Of a stretch of DNA of 64,000 bases, positions 24,542 through 55,136 are shown in pieces. The notes under the pieces were generated by a model. That model had not been told where the DNA came from, did not search any database, and was given only the letters and a program-made list of their open reading frames with translations. This DNA comes from Pontimonas salivibrio (GTDB lineage: Bacteria > Actinomycetota > Actinomycetes > Actinomycetales > Microbacteriaceae): NCBI RefSeq assembly GCF_002950575.1, contig NZ_CP026923.1, positions 930,001 through 994,000 of the forward strand, written 5' to 3'. Every line of letters begins with the position of its first letter. The stretch's first letter is position 1. The position numbers and the translations under genes are program-made.

Positions 24542-26098
24542 GTGAGCCAAGCGAGCCCGCGACCGACCACCAGCACCCCGAAGGCTCTTGCCGATCTCGC
24601 GGACGTTTTCTCCTGGGAATGGCTTCACCAACCCGGCCTGACGCGCGTATCCGGTGTCGCTCTTGCCAGTGATGCGGTGTGTGAAGGAGACCTCTTCGTT
24701 GCACTGTCCGGCTCCACCCGGCACGGCGCGGAGTTTGCCGAGGGGGCCATCGCGGCCGGGGCGGTGGCCTTACTCACCGACCCTCAAGGCGCCGCGTTGC
24801 TGAGCGGTGTGTCAACTGATTTTCCGATCGCGGTTCACCCTGAACCCCGATCAGAACTAGGCCTGCTGTCCCAACGCATTTACGACCCGGGTGTGTCACT
24901 GCCCGATGTATTTTCAGTCACTGGAACAAACGGCAAAACCTCTGTGGTGTTTTTCCTGGATGCCATTGCCCGCGCACTACATGTGCCTTCGGCGTTTTCC
25001 AACACCCACGAACGTCGAATTGGTGACGAGAGCGTCAAGACCCCTCTCACGACCCCAGAAGCACCCGAGCTCCAGGCGTTACTTGCTCTTGCCGCCGAGC
25101 GAGGTGTGTCCGTAATGGCCATCGAGGCTAGCGCACAAGCGATCCAGCGCCAGCGGTTAACGGGAATCATCTCCCGGGTTGCAGGCTTCACGAATCTCAG
25201 CCACGACCATCTCGAAGATTACGGTGACATGGAGTCCTACTTCGAGACAAAGCGCCAGCTTTTCCAACCCAGGCTCAGCCAGCAGGCAGTGATCTCTTTG
25301 GAATCCGAATGGGGAAGAAAAATGCTGGAGGGCTGCGGGGTTCCCGCGGTAAGTGTTGGCCAGCCAGACCAAAATCCGACCTGGAGCGTGGAAGTTCACG
25401 GAGTCGACGGGGCCGAAACTGTATTCGCTCTCTCGGGACCCGAGGGCACCCTGTCGAGCAGTGTTCGGGCGGTCGGCGACTATATGGTGAGAAACGCAGC
25501 CCTCGCGTTAGTGATGTTCATCCAAGCCGGCTACACGGTGGATGCGCTGGAAAAGGCGGTGGGATTAGCGCGCGGCGGAATTGAACTGATTGTCCCGGGC
25601 CGGTTGGAAAAAGTATCCAGGACTTCCCCCATTGAGGTGTTTGTCGACGCGGGACGAAGTCCTGACGCCTACCAAAAGACTTTGGAAACCCTCGCGAACC
25701 AGTCCAAGGGAAAAATGATCGTGATATGTGGCACCTCTGGTAATCGCGATCGAACAAAGCGATCGGCTATGGGCAAGATTGCCGCTCGATTCGCTGACTA
25801 CCTCATCGTCGCCGACGATGATCCGCGCAAGGAAGACCCCGCACAAATTCGCGCAGACCTCCTGGAAGGCGTGAAAATGACCGACACCCCCTACGAAGAA
25901 ATCCCCTCCCAGGAAGAGGCCATCGCCCGGGCCGTAACGATCGCCAAGCCGGGCGATACCGTTGTGTGGATGGGGCCTGGCTCTCAGTCTTACCGCGACG
26001 TCGGCGGAGTCCGAGAGCCGTTCTCTGCTCGCACAGAGGCGCTGAGAGCTCTTGAACGATCGGGCTATCTGGAGAGCAATCAGGAGGAACCATCGTGA
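24542..26098 (+). CDS. MurE-like Mur ligase with altered substrate motifs
   Basis: 518 residues in the murE position. MurE adds the third stem amino acid to UDP-MurNAc-dipeptide. Kept: the P-loop G128-TNGKT, the TTPE motif, the carbamylated-lysine motif YFETK237RQLF, SHDHLEDYG, and PGRLEKV. Changed: the invariant VDYAHTPD reads VDAGRSPD (368-375), FGCGGDRD reads CGTSGNRD (396-403), DNPR reads DDPR (426-429), the SSHAL motif reads SAQAI, and the C-terminal GKGHE reads GPGSQ (478-482). The last three zones shape the amino-acid pocket, so it should not use meso-diaminopimelate in the standard way. It could be a ligase with another substrate, or a weakened or inactive one. GTG start with GAGGAGG upstream. 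Confidence 0.8.
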   Translation: MSQASPRPTTSTPKALADLADVFSWEWLHQPGLTRVSGVALASDAVCEGDLFVALSGSTRHGAEFAEGAIAAGAVALLTDPQGAALLSGVSTDFPIAVHPEPRSELGLLSQRIYDPGVSLPDVFSVTGTNGKTSVVFFLDAIARALHVPSAFSNTHERRIGDESVKTPLTTPEAPELQALLALAAERGVSVMAIEASAQAIQRQRLTGIISRVAGFTNLSHDHLEDYGDMESYFETKRQLFQPRLSQQAVISLESEWGRKMLEGCGVPAVSVGQPDQNPTWSVEVHGVDGAETVFALSGPEGTLSSSVRAVGDYMVRNAALALVMFIQAGYTVDALEKAVGLARGGIELIVPGRLEKVSRTSPIEVFVDAGRSPDAYQKTLETLANQSKGKMIVICGTSGNRDRTKRSAMGKIAARFADYLIVADDDPRKEDPAQIRADLLEGVKMTDTPYEEIPSQEEAIARAVTIAKPGDTVVWMGPGSQSYRDVGGVREPFSARTEALRALERSGYLESNQEEPS

Positions 26099-26727
26099 CC
26101 TGGAGAGTGGACGCCATTACCCGATGGGGATCGCAGTGTGTGGATGAGGAAGGTGAAGCCCTCACGTTAGGGTTAATTGACCCCAATGACCCTGCCGCGC
26201 TCATCAGCCGCCAACCCGTCATCGACTTATTGGCCCAGTCAGAGGGTGGCCTCGATCAGACTGCTGTGCGGGGTGTTGCGCAAAGTGCGCACCTGGTCGA
26301 AGTCTTCGAGTTTGATTCGGGGGCGACGTGTTGGATGGACTGGACTGAATCCCCACATGCTGATGATCTTGTCTCCGTCGTAAAAAAAGCGTCAGCTGCG
26401 GTGCGTGACTCTGGCCGCCTTCTGGTGGTCGCCGGTCTGGTGGCGGTAGGTGCCGAGGACGACTATGACTCGTTACCGGCTCTGGGCGCTGCCATGATTC
26501 GACTGCGAGTGGACCAGTGGCTTGGTGTGGGCGTTGAAGCCAAAGCCTTAGCGACCCAGGTGGGTCTAGAAGGTTCTTGGGATGGCGAGTCACTGTGGTT
26601 GGAGAATGCCGCCACAGCGTACGATTACCTGCGTGGTTGGCCCAATGAGAATGATCTCGTCCTCATTACCGGGCACCGTTTTGGCGAGTTGCCGGGCGTG
26701 TTAGAACTGATGGGGGTGACTCGGTGA
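26095..26727 (+). CDS. MurF C-terminal domain only, no ATPase domain (pseudoenzyme)
   Basis: 210 residues, less than half of a normal MurF (about 450-480), in the murF position. The segment [16 protein letters not shown], followed by [21 protein letters not shown] and [14 protein letters not shown], aligns with the end of MurF, and the region 55-130 with the MurF stretch around the DxYNANP motif, here [11 protein letters not shown]. There is no P-loop, no TTP motif and no carbamylated lysine, so it cannot ligate D-Ala-D-Ala alone. The reading frame is clean, GTG overlaps the murE stop by 4 bp and its own stop overlaps the mraY start, which argues for a maintained protein. Function is unknown; a scaffold or regulatory role is possible. 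Confidence 0.75.
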
Positions 26728-27821
26728 GAGTTCTTTTGCTCTCAGGAGCACTGTCTCTGCTTTTCACCCTCGTACTCACCCCGGTCTTTGTTCGTGGCTT
26801 CCAACGTCTTGGTTGGGGACAATTCATCCGTCAAGACGGACCCCAAACCCACTTTGTGAAAAGGGGAACGCCCACGATGGGCGGGATCATCATCCTGCTG
26901 GGAATCGTGTTTGGGTATTTCGTCGCGCACCTCATCGCCGGCGATGTTCCCAGCTATTCCAGTGTGCTCGTCATCGCGATCATGCTGGGATTGGGGGCGG
27001 TAGGTTTTCTGGACGATTTTTCCAAGATTCGTCAGCAGCAATCGTTGGGTCTTTCTCCGCGGGCAAAAGTGGTCGGACAAATCATCGTGGCCACGGCGTT
27101 CTCGGCCTTGGCCATTTCGTTTCCCGACCAGAATGGTGAGACCCCTGCCTCCCTGGCGGTCTCATTTATCCGAGATATCGACTGGCTCACCTTCGCCGCG
27201 TTTGGCACGATCGGAAGCTATATCGCCTTCGCCATTTGGACCAGTTTGATTGTGGTGAGCACTTCTAATGCGGTGAACCTCACAGATGGCCTGGACGGAT
27301 TGGCGGCAGGTTCATCCATTTTGGTCTTTGGCGCTTACGTCTTGATCAGCTTTTGGCAATTCAACCAGTCGTGTTTCTCTGCAAGTCTTGACTCCGAAGT
27401 GGCTTACAAGTGTTACGAAGTGCGCGACCCCTTAGACCTTGCCGCCGTGGCGACGGCCATCTTGGCAAGCCTCATTGGGTTCCTGTGGTGGAACACCTCG
27501 CCGGCCAAAGTGTTCATGGGTGACACCGGTTCACTTGCGCTCGGTGGTGGGGTTGCGGCAATGGCGATCTTTACCCGCACCGAATTGCTACTACCCCTCA
27601 TTGCCGGTCTGTTTCTGATTCTCACGGCGTCAGTAGTCCTGCAGCGCACCTACTTCAAACTGACAAAAGGTCGGCGCATTTTCTATTCCAGTCCTCTCCA
27701 TCACCACTATGAAATCAAAGGCTGGGCGGAAGTGACCATTGTGGTGCGCTTTTGGCTCATCGCCGGTTTCCTTGCTTTTGCCGGTGCGGGAATCTTCTAC
27801 CTGGAGTGGCTTGGTCGTTAA
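26724..27821 (+). CDS. mraY: Phospho-N-acetylmuramoyl-pentapeptide transferase MraY
   Basis: Transfers phospho-MurNAc-pentapeptide to undecaprenyl phosphate, making lipid I. 365 residues with about ten membrane helices and all family motifs: KRGTPTMGG, the catalytic [34 protein letters not shown], and the muraymycin-site loop [13 protein letters not shown]. So the membrane step appears fully functional and needs a UDP-MurNAc-peptide substrate, although the neighbouring ligases look unable to complete one. GTG start overlaps the murF-like stop; its stop overlaps the murD-like start. Confidence 0.95.
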
Positions 27822-28858
27822 TGTTCGCTGTGCTTGATTCTGGTTTTGCGCCTGAGACTCTTACCAGTTGGTCAGCACCTTGGGCGGGCTTAAAAGTCTT
27901 GGTGGTGGGCCTGGGTGAGGGTGGTTTCGCCCTAGCGGACACTGTGGCCGAGCTCGGGGCGCACACCCATGTTGTCCAGCTGGGCGACGATGCTGACCGG
28001 CTCACCATCCTGGGTGTGTTGGGCGTGAGTGTTCATACGGTCGGATCAGATGCTGAGATTGCCGATTTGGCCAAAGAGCTTGCACCTGACCTGGTGCTTC
28101 TGTCCCCGGATTGGGTCCCCGACCGGGAAATCGAATCTGCGCTCTGGGAAAGCGATCTCATCGTCTGGTCTGACGTGGAATTCTCCTGGAGGGTGGCCGA
28201 TAAAACGGGCACACGCCCCGACATTGTCTTGTGTGCTGGTGAGCAGAAAGGGTCCTGGGTGGCCGATGTGGCGCAACGATTTTTGCTCCACGCTTCACAG
28301 CGCGCGGCCCGAGGAGGCCATGGCGCCCCGTCAGTGCTTGATGCCCTTCGACACCCAGACGGCGTTGACGTTGTTCTCTGGTCGCTTTCGGATCGACAGT
28401 TGTGGCGGATGGGCGCTGATGAGTCGAGCCTGCGCAGGCCACGAGTCAGTGTCTATTTCGCGCCAGGCGAGGACACGGATGTCAGCACAATCGAGGCGGT
28501 CTACACCCACACGGTTGAGTCCTGCATCTATAAGCCCGGCACCCAGAGCGAGACCGCCCTTCACGCGGCGTCGGTGGTGGAGGGGGCCCGAGCGATTGGC
28601 ATTGTGGGGGACACCCCGGGAATGAGCGATCTGGGCCGCGTCGGTGAAGTGATTTGTGATCGTGCTTTTTTGCCCGATCGAAAAGACCGAGCATTGGAGT
28701 TGTGCACGGTCGACGAGCTGGTGGGCGCGGGTTTTTCCACGCCCGAGTCGGTTGAGGTTGCGATAGCTGCGCTGGGCATTGCGCGCGCGTTAGACGTGCC
28801 ACCGGAATTACTCGGCGGGGCTCTTAAAGACGGTGGTGAGTGGCCGGAACATAAATAG
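27821..28858 (+). CDS. MurD-like protein without P-loop and C-terminal domain (pseudoenzyme)
   Basis: 345 residues in the murD position; true MurD is about 450-500. The N-terminal UDP-binding domain is recognisable (LTSWSAPWAGLKVLVVGLG, ADTVAELGA, WSDVEFSWRVADKTGTRPD). In the central domain the MurD framework remains (SVLDALRHPDGVDVV, VVEGARAIG, DRAFLPDRKDRALEL, TVDEL), but GTNGKTT is replaced by CAGEQKGS (138-145), the ELSSFQL segment reads SLSDRQL, and NxxxDHLDWH is gone. The C-terminal ligase domain is absent; the protein ends just after the LGGAL helix. It cannot bind ATP in the family manner or add D-glutamate. The frame is intact and coupled to mraY, so it is probably expressed. Confidence 0.8.
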   Translation: MFAVLDSGFAPETLTSWSAPWAGLKVLVVGLGEGGFALADTVAELGAHTHVVQLGDDADRLTILGVLGVSVHTVGSDAEIADLAKELAPDLVLLSPDWVPDREIESALWESDLIVWSDVEFSWRVADKTGTRPDIVLCAGEQKGSWVADVAQRFLLHASQRAARGGHGAPSVLDALRHPDGVDVVLWSLSDRQLWRMGADESSLRRPRVSVYFAPGEDTDVSTIEAVYTHTVESCIYKPGTQSETALHAASVVEGARAIGIVGDTPGMSDLGRVGEVICDRAFLPDRKDRALELCTVDELVGAGFSTPESVEVAIAALGIARALDVPPELLGGALKDGGEWPEHK

Positions 28859-30184: not shown

Positions 30185-31260
30185 TTACTATTGCCCTGAC
30201 CGGTGGTGGGACTGCCGGGCATATTTCTCCTCTTCTTGCAGTCGCTGAGCAGCTCGGCGGCAGTGCGCGGTGCGTGGTGATAGGCACTCTCGGGGGTCGT
30301 GAAGATGAGCTGGTGCCTCAAAGTGTTCCCATCATTTACCGCATTCCGAAGCTGCCCTTCCCGAGGAAAATCAATGGGGCGGCACTGGCGTTTCCGCTTC
30401 GTTGGGTAAAGGCCTTCTTGGCCGTCAGGCGGGCACTCAAACAGGCAGCGGTCGATGTTGTGGTGGGGTTTGGTGGGTATACGGCAGCCCCGGCCTACCT
30501 GGCTGCCTGGTCGCTTCGTATCCCTTTGGTCATTCACGAAGCGAACGCGATTCCGGGGCTTGCCAACCGCCTCGGAGCCAGACTTACCCACTGGGTAGGA
30601 GTGTGTTTTCCCGGCACACCGCTGCCCCACGCAGAGGTGGTGGGGATGCCTCTTCGCCGGCAGGTGCTCACCCTGGATCGTCTGGCGCTGGGCACTCAGG
30701 CGCGGAAACATTTTGGTTTGCGCCCCGGTACTCCTGTTCTATTAGTGACCGGGGGGTCTTCAGGTGCCCGAACCATCAACGAGACGCTCGATAGGGTCAC
30801 CGGAGACATTGTGGCGAAGGGCTGGCAGGTCCTGCACCTGCGCGGTCCTGGCCACGATGCACCAGACGCACCACCTACCGGGGTAGTGCAGGTTGCGTAT
30901 ACCAACCGGATGGACCTCGCGCTTGCTGCGGCCGACCTGGTAATTTCTCGAGCGGGTGCCAACACTGTGGCGGAGTTGGGCGTTGTGGGTCTTCCCGCCA
31001 TTTTTGTGCCGTACCACGTGGGAAACGGTGAACAGGAACACAACGCCGCCTTTGCGGTGTCAGCGGGTGCTGCCCTTCAGGTCAGTACGCCTGAGTTCAC
31101 CGCGGAATGGGTGCGCTCGGTGTTGTTACCACTGTTGGATGACCGTGAACGAATCGCGTCGATGGCGGCCGCGATGGAGCAGACCGCCAATCGAGACGGA
31201 GCGGAAATTGTTGCGCGCTGGGCCTTACAGGCTGGCGCTCGGAGAAAGGACGACAGCTGA
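30181..31260 (+). CDS. murG: UDP-GlcNAc transferase MurG
   Basis: Adds GlcNAc to lipid I, making lipid II at the inner membrane face. 359 residues. N-domain GGGTAGHISPLLAVAE binds lipid I; VVGFGGYTAAPAYLAAW, HEANAIPGLANRLG and GGSSGARTINE follow; the UDP-GlcNAc site ISRAGANTVAELGVVGLPAIFVPY and GNGEQEHNA completes the GT-B fold. All expected catalytic elements are present. GTG overlaps the ftsW stop by 4 bp, and the stop overlaps the murC start. Confidence 0.95.
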   Translation: MITIALTGGGTAGHISPLLAVAEQLGGSARCVVIGTLGGREDELVPQSVPIIYRIPKLPFPRKINGAALAFPLRWVKAFLAVRRALKQAAVDVVVGFGGYTAAPAYLAAWSLRIPLVIHEANAIPGLANRLGARLTHWVGVCFPGTPLPHAEVVGMPLRRQVLTLDRLALGTQARKHFGLRPGTPVLLVTGGSSGARTINETLDRVTGDIVAKGWQVLHLRGPGHDAPDAPPTGVVQVAYTNRMDLALAAADLVISRAGANTVAELGVVGLPAIFVPYHVGNGEQEHNAAFAVSAGAALQVSTPEFTAEWVRSVLLPLLDDRERIASMAAAMEQTANRDGAEIVARWALQAGARRKDDS

Positions 31261-32720
31261 TGTTGCGCCCGCGTGCTGATGGTTGGCTGCCCGACGAATT
31301 GGGTCGCGTTCACATGGTCGGAATTGGTGGCTCCGGAATGAGCGGTATTGCTCGGGTGTTGCACGAGCGCGGCCATATGGTCAGCGGCACCGACCGGGCC
31401 GCGTCAGAAGTTACCGAGTCGCTTGCCGCGAGTGGGATCACCGTGTTCATTGGTGAGGATTCGGGTTTTGTGGACCAGGCGGACACGGTGATATCTACCT
31501 ATGCGGTGCGTGACAATCATCCGGAAATGGTTCGAGCCCGCGAACGGGGCATCACTGTCCTGCACCGGGCAGACGCTCTACGCTTTATTGCCCGCGGTTT
31601 AGACACCATTGCGGTGGGAGGCTCGCACGGTAAAACCACCTCCACTGCGATTCTCGCGACCGCGATGGAACGCCTCGGCGAGGACATTACGGCGGTCAAC
31701 GGCGGAGTGATCAGCCAGTGGGGGGTGTCTGCCAGGGCGGGGAGTTCGTCGTGGTGTGTGCTGGAGGCTGATGAGTCGGATGCATCCTTCTTGATCTATC
31801 ACCCGCGCATCGCGCTGGTGACGAACGTTGCGGCAGACCATTTAGATTTTTACGGCTCTAGGGAAGCGGTCTTTGCTGCCTTTGATGAGTTTGTCCTAAG
31901 CGCCACCGACGCGGTGGTCTGTTTGGATGATGACGGCGCGAGGGCGTTGGTGGGACGCCTTGCCCCTCGGGAGGTCCTCACCTACGGGACCCACCCGGAC
32001 GCAGCACTCCGACTCAGTGACGTCACGGTGGCACCGTATGCCCGGGCAGTGGTGACTTTTGGCACCCAGAGTGCGTCTTTTGAGTTGGCTGTGCCCGGTG
32101 AGCTAAACGCCCTCAACGCCACCGGAGTAATCGGGGTTCTCCTCCTGGCAGGTTGGTCTCTTGACGACGCGGCGCGGGGTGTGTCTGGCTTTACCGGTGC
32201 CGATCGCCGTTTCCAATTCCACGGTGAGATCGGCGGAATCAGGGTATTCGACGATCACGCCCACCACCCCACTGAAGTGGCAACAGCGTTGGATATTGCT
32301 CAAACCGTTGCCGGTCAGGGTGAGGTGATTACGATGTTTCAGCCCCACCTGTTTAGTCGCACCCAGTTGATGTCTGCCGAGCTGGCAGAGGCCTTTCGAC
32401 ACGGAAGCGACCACACGATTTTTCTGGACATTTTTGGTTCCCGAGAGGACCCCATCGAGGGCGTCACGACTCAGATGATTCTGGATCGGTTGGGACCCGC
32501 GGTGTCTTACGACTTTGAGCCAGATTGGGATCGGGCAGTTGATCTGGCCGTTTCTCGAGCGCAGCCGGGAGACGTCATTGTGACGATGAGCACCGGCGAC
32601 CTGTATCAAATTGTGCCTCGGTTGCTCAAGCAGCTTCGGAAAGTACACGAACGGGCCGTTGACGTATTCGAAGACAACTCCGGCGACGAGGAAACCGGCC
32701 CGTCGGTGGTGGGCCAGTAG
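31260..32720 (+). CDS. murC: UDP-N-acetylmuramate ligase MurC, slightly diverged
   Basis: Attaches the first stem residue to UDP-MurNAc. 486 residues. The nucleotide motif HMVGIGGSGMSGIA, P-loop GSHGKTTS (121-128), EADESDASF (169-177), ADHLDFYG, and FQPHLFSRT are present, so activity is likely. Two motifs differ: DDYAHHP reads D331-DHAHHP, and the normal GAGD near the C-terminus reads STGD. Microbacteriaceae with group B peptidoglycan carry Gly in place of L-Ala at position 1, so altered amino-acid recognition is a possible reason; that is inference. Of the four ligase positions this is the best preserved. Confidence 0.88.
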   Translation: MLRPRADGWLPDELGRVHMVGIGGSGMSGIARVLHERGHMVSGTDRAASEVTESLAASGITVFIGEDSGFVDQADTVISTYAVRDNHPEMVRARERGITVLHRADALRFIARGLDTIAVGGSHGKTTSTAILATAMERLGEDITAVNGGVISQWGVSARAGSSSWCVLEADESDASFLIYHPRIALVTNVAADHLDFYGSREAVFAAFDEFVLSATDAVVCLDDDGARALVGRLAPREVLTYGTHPDAALRLSDVTVAPYARAVVTFGTQSASFELAVPGELNALNATGVIGVLLLAGWSLDDAARGVSGFTGADRRFQFHGEIGGIRVFDDHAHHPTEVATALDIAQTVAGQGEVITMFQPHLFSRTQLMSAELAEAFRHGSDHTIFLDIFGSREDPIEGVTTQMILDRLGPAVSYDFEPDWDRAVDLAVSRAQPGDVIVTMSTGDLYQIVPRLLKQLRKVHERAVDVFEDNSGDEETGPSVVGQ

Positions 32721-54087: not shown

Positions 54088-55136
54088 AGTTCACGCTCCC
54101 AGAAGCTAGGTCCAACAGGCTCAGTGAAATCACCTTGTGCTACTAGATATCCTTCCGCATCAACGGTGATAGGAAGCTGAGGAAGGGGTCTGGCGGCGGG
54201 TCCGAAGATCACTTCGCACTCGTTTGATACATCGAATTGTGACTGGTGGCAGGGGCACAGCAGGTGGTGGGTGTGCTGCTCGTAAAGCGCCACTGGGCAT
54301 CCGACGTGGGTACAAATCTTTGAGTACGCGACAATTCCTTGGTATGACCAGCCCTTGCGCGCTTCGGATTCGTTGAGATCCTCGATCGGCAAGCGCATCA
54401 GCAAAACCGCTGCCTTAGCTTTTTCCTCGAGTTTTCCTGACTTGATTTCTTTCAGTCCCTCAGGAATGACGTGGAACGCGGAGCCGATAGTGACATCCGC
54501 TGCGCGGATGGGCTCGCCCGAAGGGTCCCTCGCGAGGCGCACACCTTGGTCCCACATGGTCTGCTTCATCAGCTTTGAAGGGTTTTCCGGTGGGGCAAGA
54601 TCCCTAAAGAGCACTACCGCGGGGATAGGGGTCGCGAGAAGAGCACCAATCAGGGAGTTTCGCACCAGTGAGCGGCGCGTGAAACCACTTTCTTTGTTGG
54701 CGTCCGTGAAAATCTGAGAGGCCTTTTCGCGGGTCTCATCGTCACCGCGGGTGGGGTGGCGCTCTTCGACCATTTCTTCGTCGGACATGAGGTTCTTGGC
54801 CCAGTACACCGCGCCAAAACCGATTCCCAATAGTCCCAGCGTGATTCCAAGCCCCATCAAGCCGTTGTTGAGGCGCACTGAGGTCATATCGCCCGGAATG
54901 ATGGGGAACACGACGTAGGCGACGGTAGCAAAGATGCTTCCCACAACAGACAACCCGAAGAACATCGCGATGCGACGCTCCGCGGTACGCGCTGCTTTGG
55001 GGTCCTTATCGGTAATTCGGTGCTCTTCTTCAGGCAAACCCGGATTTTGGGGTGCATTGGAGCGTTCAACGGCCGAACCCGGATCAGGCTGGTAGTCGTC
55101 GTATGAGTCGCTGTGTTCAGCAGGCTCTTTCGCCAT
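54084..55136 (-). CDS. qcrA: Cytochrome bc1 complex Rieske iron-sulfur subunit (QcrA)
   Basis: 350 residues. Three membrane helices (about 57-78, 88-110 and 158-178), as in actinobacterial QcrA, precede the Rieske domain with CTHVGCPV and CPCHQSQFD, which bind the 2Fe-2S cluster. The N-terminal arm is acidic. AAGGAG lies just before the ATG. Middle gene of the qcrCAB operon. Confidence 0.95.
   Translation of the reverse strand: MAKEPAEHSDSYDDYQPDPGSAVERSNAPQNPGLPEEEHRITDKDPKAARTAERRIAMFFGLSVVGSIFATVAYVVFPIIPGDMTSVRLNNGLMGLGITLGLLGIGFGAVYWAKNLMSDEEMVEERHPTRGDDETREKASQIFTDANKESGFTRRSLVRNSLIGALLATPIPAVVLFRDLAPPENPSKLMKQTMWDQGVRLARDPSGEPIRAADVTIGSAFHVIPEGLKEIKSGKLEEKAKAAVLLMRLPIEDLNESEARKGWSYQGIVAYSKICTHVGCPVALYEQHTHHLLCPCHQSQFDVSNECEVIFGPAARPLPQLPITVDAEGYLVAQGDFTEPVGPSFWEREL

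Follow-up and report, generated by a model that had tools for sequence, protein, structure and literature searches.

The only murE gene of Pontimonas salivibrio CL-TW6T, a streamlined marine bacterium in the family Microbacteriaceae (PMC6106888), probably encodes an active ligase for a diamino acid with one carboxyl group, most likely L-2,4-diaminobutyrate; we infer both the substrate and the exclusion of meso-diaminopimelate (DAP). The open reading frame is the organism's sole MurE and its catalytic set is intact, with ligation chemistry predicted from the sequence.

Gene identity and locus

The gene occupies 24542..26098 on the forward strand of the window, the 64,000-nucleotide stretch of DNA analysed here, which covers positions 930001-994000 of the complete, 1,760,810-bp genome. 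It begins with GTG, encodes a UDP-MurNAc-tripeptide synthetase of 518 aa, and stands in a dcw cluster with the order mraZ-rsmH-ftsL-ftsI-murE-[murF remnant]-mraY-[murD remnant]-ftsW-murG-murC-ftsQ-ftsZ. The product belongs to the MurE family by its match to TIGR01085 (336.1 bits, cut-off 257.3, E 3.7e-100), and it contains all three Mur-ligase Pfam domains (PF01225, Mur_ligase; PF08245, Mur_ligase_M; PF02875, Mur_ligase_C). A Mur_ligase_M search of the complete genome returned seven proteins, namely MurE, MurF, MurC, MurD, FolC, MurT, and a PgsB-like protein, with no second MurE among them. The MurT-like protein (genome positions 904851-905273) scored below its curated cut-off, as did the relative of PgsB poly-gamma-glutamate synthase (54383-54835; 131 bits, cut-off 222.7).

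Scores against substrate-specific models fell below their cut-offs. The three main equivalogs for meso-DAP-adding enzymes (EC 6.3.2.13; NF001124, NF001126, and NF001123) gave 394.6, 294.1, and 259.8 bits against cut-offs of 476, 373, and 586, and the L-lysine equivalog (EC 6.3.2.7; NF010628) gave 215.1 bits against 536. The motifs that mark membership of the DAP-adding group, DNPR and GKGHE, read DDPR and GPGSQ in this protein. An AlphaFold2 model, for which 30 related sequences were supplied (pLDDT 92.3, pTM 0.91), was nearest to mycobacterial MurE among solved structures (8g6p; TM 0.89/0.91).

Catalytic residues and altered motifs

We compared the protein with a genus set of 18 MurEs, consisting of that of P. 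salivibrio and those of 17 same-genus genomes (46-57% identical to P. salivibrio MurE), and with 52 MurEs from bacteria beyond the Microbacteriaceae. The Pontimonas sequences form a single clade in the gene tree (support 100/100). A first-pass annotation had held that the P-loop and the carbamyl-lysine motif are kept, which the alignment confirms: all features lying on the forward strand, the P-loop TGTNGKTS (residues 127-134; 24920..24943) is invariant in 18/18 genus members, and K237 (25250..25252, within YFETKRQLF), the carbamylation site of Mur ligases, is present in 17/17 readable genus rows and in all 52 outside sequences. TTPE (170-173; 25049..25060), which contacts UDP-MurNAc-dipeptide, is likewise intact in 18/18. 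The remainder of the catalytic set (E195, R205, D222-H223, R354, D369, R402-D403, and K406-R407, in addition to T170-E173) is also complete, and these residues are retained across the 18 genus-level MurEs.

The amino-acid pocket, by comparison, has been rewritten (Y370A, H372R, C398T/G399S, N427D, K479P, H481S, and E482Q), and every motif string that the first-pass annotation quoted is present. VDAGRSPD (368-375; 25643..25666) replaces VDYAHTPD, with A370 and R372 found in 18/18 genus members and nowhere else; GTSGNRD (397-403; 25730..25750) replaces GCGGDRD while retaining R402 and D403; DDPR (426-429; 25817..25828) replaces DNPR; and GPGSQ (478-482; 25973..25987) replaces GKGHE, so that Glu becomes Gln and His becomes Ser. 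Because DNPR retains its Arg and its first Asp, the genuine change in that motif is Asn to Asp at D427. A further alteration, beyond those listed earlier, converts EVSSHAL to EASAQAI; the SAQA segment (197-200; 25130..25141), in place of SSHA or SSHG, is typical of the Microbacteriaceae, with A198 in 18/18 Pontimonas sequences and in the 16 and 17 rows of the two family classes FE and HQ defined below, and S198 in 51/52 other MurEs.

Each of A370, R372, T398, S399, D426, D427, P479, S481, and Q482 occurs in 18/18 members of the clade. Outside the family, H372, D426, K479, and E482 are each found in 52/52 sequences, and position 427 is Asn in 48/52 and Asp in 4/52. The four DDPR sequences come from Lysinibacillus, Sporosarcina, Rummeliibacillus, and Kurthia, which are L-lysine-type Firmicutes.

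Ligase activity and the MurF and MurD neighbours

Two neighbours of murE in the dcw cluster have, judging by sequence, lost ligase function. The gene at the MurF position (26095..26727, forward strand) encodes a 210-aa remnant with no ligase P-loop domain and no NCBIfam or Pfam match, conserved in the genus, and the protein at the MurD position (27752..28858, forward strand) aligns with MurD without its P-loop GTNGKTT and scored only 31.9 bits against TIGR01087 (cut-off 211.95). Farther along, murC (31260..32720, forward strand) is intact (TIGR01082, 386.8 bits, cut-off 335.1). Elsewhere in the genome lie an unlinked, intact MurF-like ligase (positions 538430-539980), which adjoins a D-Ala-D-Ala ligase gene and has a hydrophobic N-terminal part where domain 1 normally lies, and an unlinked, intact MurD (1480265-1481782) that scores above its cut-off. 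The MurF-like ligase reaches 191 bits, below the MurF-model cut-off of 288.6, because its domain 1 goes unmatched. Unlinked MurF-like genes were found in 18/19 genus genomes and unlinked MurD genes in 19/19.

The genes at the MurF and MurD positions stay open and are conserved across the genus (loci L038-L046, L154, and L155), with dN/dS of about 0.06-0.10. From their sequences, the encoded proteins look like retained non-catalytic proteins rather than decaying pseudogenes, and they are perhaps scaffolds of a Mur/divisome complex. A Salinibacterium sp. MAG, N14CT, has a dcw MurD without a P-loop (TAGGAEAGRAA) and a MurF whose best match is the Pontimonas remnant, and the same MurF/MurD replacement may have occurred there.

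The proximity of these ligase-dead remnants in the same operon had led the first-pass annotation to suggest that MurE might be losing activity in parallel. MurE has in fact evolved faster in Pontimonas than FtsI and MraY: its distance ratio to FtsI is 1.27 (versus 0.64 in other Microbacteriaceae), to MraY 2.68 (versus 1.26), and to MurC 1.45 (versus 1.24). However, a pseudogene or dying MurE is rejected on the grounds of the single copy, the intact catalytic set, and dN/dS of about 0.1 (0.11 and 0.095 in two close pairs). A degenerate remnant would lack its P-loop or catalytic residues and be backed up by an intact gene at another locus, and MurE shows neither: the catalytic set is complete in all 18 genomes, and whereas MurF and MurD have genus-wide unlinked substitutes, MurE has none. 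The suggested loss is therefore not supported, and the probability that activity is lost or being lost appears very small. That MurE evolves about twice as fast in the genus as in other Microbacteriaceae, when measured against FtsI and MraY, is consistent with an altered pocket or somewhat relaxed constraint rather than with loss.

Comparison with characterised pockets

In a ternary complex of Staphylococcus aureus MurE, compared with the enzymes of Escherichia coli and Mycobacterium tuberculosis, the second carboxyl of meso-DAP is hydrogen-bonded by the Asn and Arg of DNPR, and the side-chain amine is held by the first Asp of DNPR and by Glu-468 (Glu-460 in S. aureus); the S. aureus mutant E460A is nearly dead and N407A is inactive (PMC3829189). 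Where a substrate is assigned, the bacterial MurE structures that we found are those of DAP or lysine enzymes. Mycobacterial MurE, a meso-DAP ligase (8g6p, 2wtz, 2xja), is the best match to the P. salivibrio protein in both sequence and fold, sharing the three domains, P-loop, and carbamyl-lysine, but its DDNPR, GKGHE, DYAHKP, and SSHAL correspond to DDDPR, GPGSQ, DAGRSP, and SAQAI. The L/D-lysine ligase of Thermotoga maritima (4bub; E 5.2e-55), from another phylum, shares DDPR while keeping GRGHE and DFAHSPD, unlike P. salivibrio. The L-lysine ligase of S. aureus (4c12; fold TM 0.87) has the first motif Asp in common, but combines DNPA with the amine-binding Glu-460 where P. salivibrio has DDPR and Gln. 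In terms of the lysine-type amine-binding Asp/Glu pair, P. salivibrio retains the Asp, replaces the Glu with Gln, and has a second Asp adjoining the first.

We propose that the enzyme would follow the usual Mur-ligase chemistry, employing ATP, the carbamyl-lysine, and an acyl-phosphate to join the third stem residue of a DAP-free group-B peptidoglycan to UDP-MurNAc-dipeptide. Judging from the alignment, Asp in place of Asn in DNPR would put a negative charge at the site of the second DAP carboxyl and repel it; Gln in place of Glu in GKGHE would remove one of the two amine-holding acids; and the pair D426/D427 could be an acidic partner of the side-chain amine. DapF and LysA are both encoded in the genome and make DAP for lysine, so DAP in the cell must be discriminated against.

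The presence of these two enzymes could also be taken to favour an ordinary meso-DAP ligase whose motifs have drifted neutrally, as could the retained motif Arg. In addition, the T. maritima enzyme, with its DDPR, accepts DAP in vitro (PMC9434261), and DDPR alone therefore does not amount to exclusion of DAP. We nevertheless consider an ordinary DAP ligase highly improbable. The changes are fixed in 18/18 members of a clade in which MurE shares only 46-57% identity with the P. salivibrio protein, which argues against chance or drift, and the group-B walls of Microbacteriaceae contain diaminobutyrate, ornithine, lysine, or homoserine, not DAP (PMC4156110, PMC7033078, PMC10978784). An amino acid other than meso-DAP, as the first-pass annotation suggested, is thus supported by the DAP-free walls of the family, the Asn-to-Asp change, and scores below the DAP-ligase cut-offs.

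Pocket classes in the Microbacteriaceae

Pontimonas MurE falls within a group-B-wall class of Microbacteriaceae MurEs that we define by SAxA in the central domain, GPG or GLA for GKG, and an altered DNPR. Within this family, class FE has (F/Y)(H/N)PR, GPGHE, and DYGH (Agromyces, Cryobacterium, Subtercola, Herbiconiux, Leifsonia, Amnibacterium, and Leucobacter), and class HQ has HHPR, GPGHQ, and DFGH (Curtobacterium, Microbacterium, Rhodoluna, Galbitalea, and Salinibacterium). FE enzymes resemble that of P. salivibrio in their group-B wall, SAQAL (SAQAI in P. salivibrio), GPG for GKG, and dcw position, but have (F/Y)(H/N)PR, GPGHE, and DYGH(S/T) where P. salivibrio has DDPR, GPGSQ, and DAGRS. 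HQ enzymes share the same SAQAL-type segment and GPG, as well as Gln482 followed by YRD, but differ in HHPR, GPGHQ, and DFGHS. In the family comparison, DDPR combined with GPGSQ was found in Pontimonas only. The first-pass annotation treated the pocket as unique; it is, however, one of at least three types in the family, and DDPR itself is known from lysine-using MurEs.

Other variants were also observed. Agrococcus has DFNPR and GPGDA, and in a further Microbacteriaceae pocket class (L034, L035, and L037) DH(H/Q)(P/S)R is paired with GLAGK, GLAEK, or GLASQ at the GKGHE site. Rathayibacter Leaf185 (L140, L150, and L153) and Curtobacterium (L146/L151 and L147/L152) have additional MurE genes away from the dcw cluster, which carry GPGHQ, GPGDT, or GPGLT and accompany an FE or HQ copy inside the cluster. 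Rathayibacter is a diaminobutyrate-type genus, and Leaf185 was considered as an exception to the classes and rejected: its dcw MurE is of class FE, and its HQ gene is an extra copy. Five Microbacterium MurEs lie outside the dcw cluster; in the two of these genomes that were searched, MurE is present as a single copy. In Rhodoluna, MurE clusters with HQ, even after removal of the motif columns, and the remaining dcw genes with FE genera; placement of its MurE with FE was weakly rejected (AU p 0.035, for a group chosen after the tree was seen), and because the rejection is weak we do not lean on a history of gene transfer.

The classes can be set beside wall chemistry. Most FE genera other than Cryobacterium, Subtercola, and Leucobacter are diaminobutyrate types, and ornithine B2-beta types have L-homoserine at position 3. 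Previous studies reported diaminobutyrate in the walls of Subtercola (B2-gamma; PMC5945732), Cryobacterium (B2-gamma; PMC7033078), and, by a title cited in PMC4511665, Leucobacter, diaminobutyrate with homoserine in Rhodoluna (B2-beta; PMC4156110), D-ornithine or L-lysine and rarely diaminobutyrate in Microbacterium (PMC10757982), and lysine with ornithine in Salinibacterium (PMC7033078). The FE pocket, with an acid kept at 482, accompanies an amine side chain, and the HQ pocket, with no acid at 426, 427, or 482, accompanies homoserine as far as is known, Salinibacterium and Galbitalea aside. At least three MurE pocket types in the Microbacteriaceae thus seem to correspond to different wall chemistries, although the chemotypes are genus-level and class is largely confounded with phylogeny.

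Substrate of the Pontimonas enzyme

The wall of P. salivibrio was reported to be without homoserine, and a tabulated comparison with Rhodoluna lists homoserine, and no diamino acid, as a difference between the two (PMC4156110, Table 4); the 2018 genome paper on P. salivibrio gives no wall amino-acid composition. Diaminobutyrate is therefore favoured, because homoserine is absent and the diamino acid is not listed as differing from that of Rhodoluna, a diaminobutyrate organism. On this basis, L-2,4-diaminobutyric acid would rank first, and L-ornithine or L-lysine would be less likely. No diaminobutyrate transaminase above the TIGR00709 cut-off was found in the P. salivibrio genome, where the matches to this model are a GABA transaminase, an ornithine transaminase, and HemL. 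Matches above the cut-off were also absent in Cryobacterium, Subtercola, Leucobacter, Herbiconiux, and a presumed Rhodoluna (G028), and since most diaminobutyrate genera tested share this absence, we regard it as uninformative.

Alternatively, the same active ligase may take L-ornithine or L-lysine as the third residue. DDPR is common to lysine-using MurEs, the genome encodes an ornithine--oxo-acid transaminase (474.9 bits, cut-off 378.4) as well as LysA, which performs the last step of lysine synthesis, and both amino acids occur in the walls of other Microbacteriaceae (PMC7033078). However, the diamino acid that the Rhodoluna comparison implies to be shared would be diaminobutyrate, and the lysine pocket of S. 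aureus requires the Glu that is Gln here. This alternative is therefore unlikely, though the strongest of those considered.

A second possibility is that L-homoserine is added, in which case the change from Glu to Gln would signal a side chain with an uncharged hydroxyl, by analogy with the HQ pockets of Rhodoluna and Curtobacterium. Q482 is shared with all HQ sequences (17/17), including that of the homoserine organism Rhodoluna, and the dcw-gene tree places Pontimonas with HQ genera. Both the reported lack of homoserine in the wall and the Asp-Asp pair at 426/427, where HQ enzymes have His-His, speak against this, and we judge it improbable.

With L-2,4-diaminobutyrate retained as the preferred substrate, a more general code for group-B pockets can be sketched tentatively, although we hold it to be less probable than the substrate assignment and somewhat doubtful as a whole. 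E482 together with an aromatic residue and His would specify L-diaminobutyrate, and His-His-Gln would specify L-homoserine; in Pontimonas, the acid would have moved to the Asp-Asp of DDPR, with Gln replacing Glu, so that a diamino acid is selected by a route new among characterised MurEs.

Implications

Microbacteriaceae group-B walls have been described chemically for decades. We found no account, in the literature searched, of the mechanism by which the MurEs of Microbacteriaceae with such walls choose their residue. The DAP-free wall chemistry is long known, but the pocket classes and the DDPR/GPGSQ solution of Pontimonas appear to be undescribed in that literature. Automatic annotation that labels these Microbacteriaceae genes DAP ligases is probably in error, and the name should not be applied to P. 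salivibrio murE. The pocket classes yield a small, assayable set of residues (370, 372, 426, 427, 481, and 482), and they could allow the wall chemotype of Microbacteriaceae to be read from genomes, including those of uncultured members.
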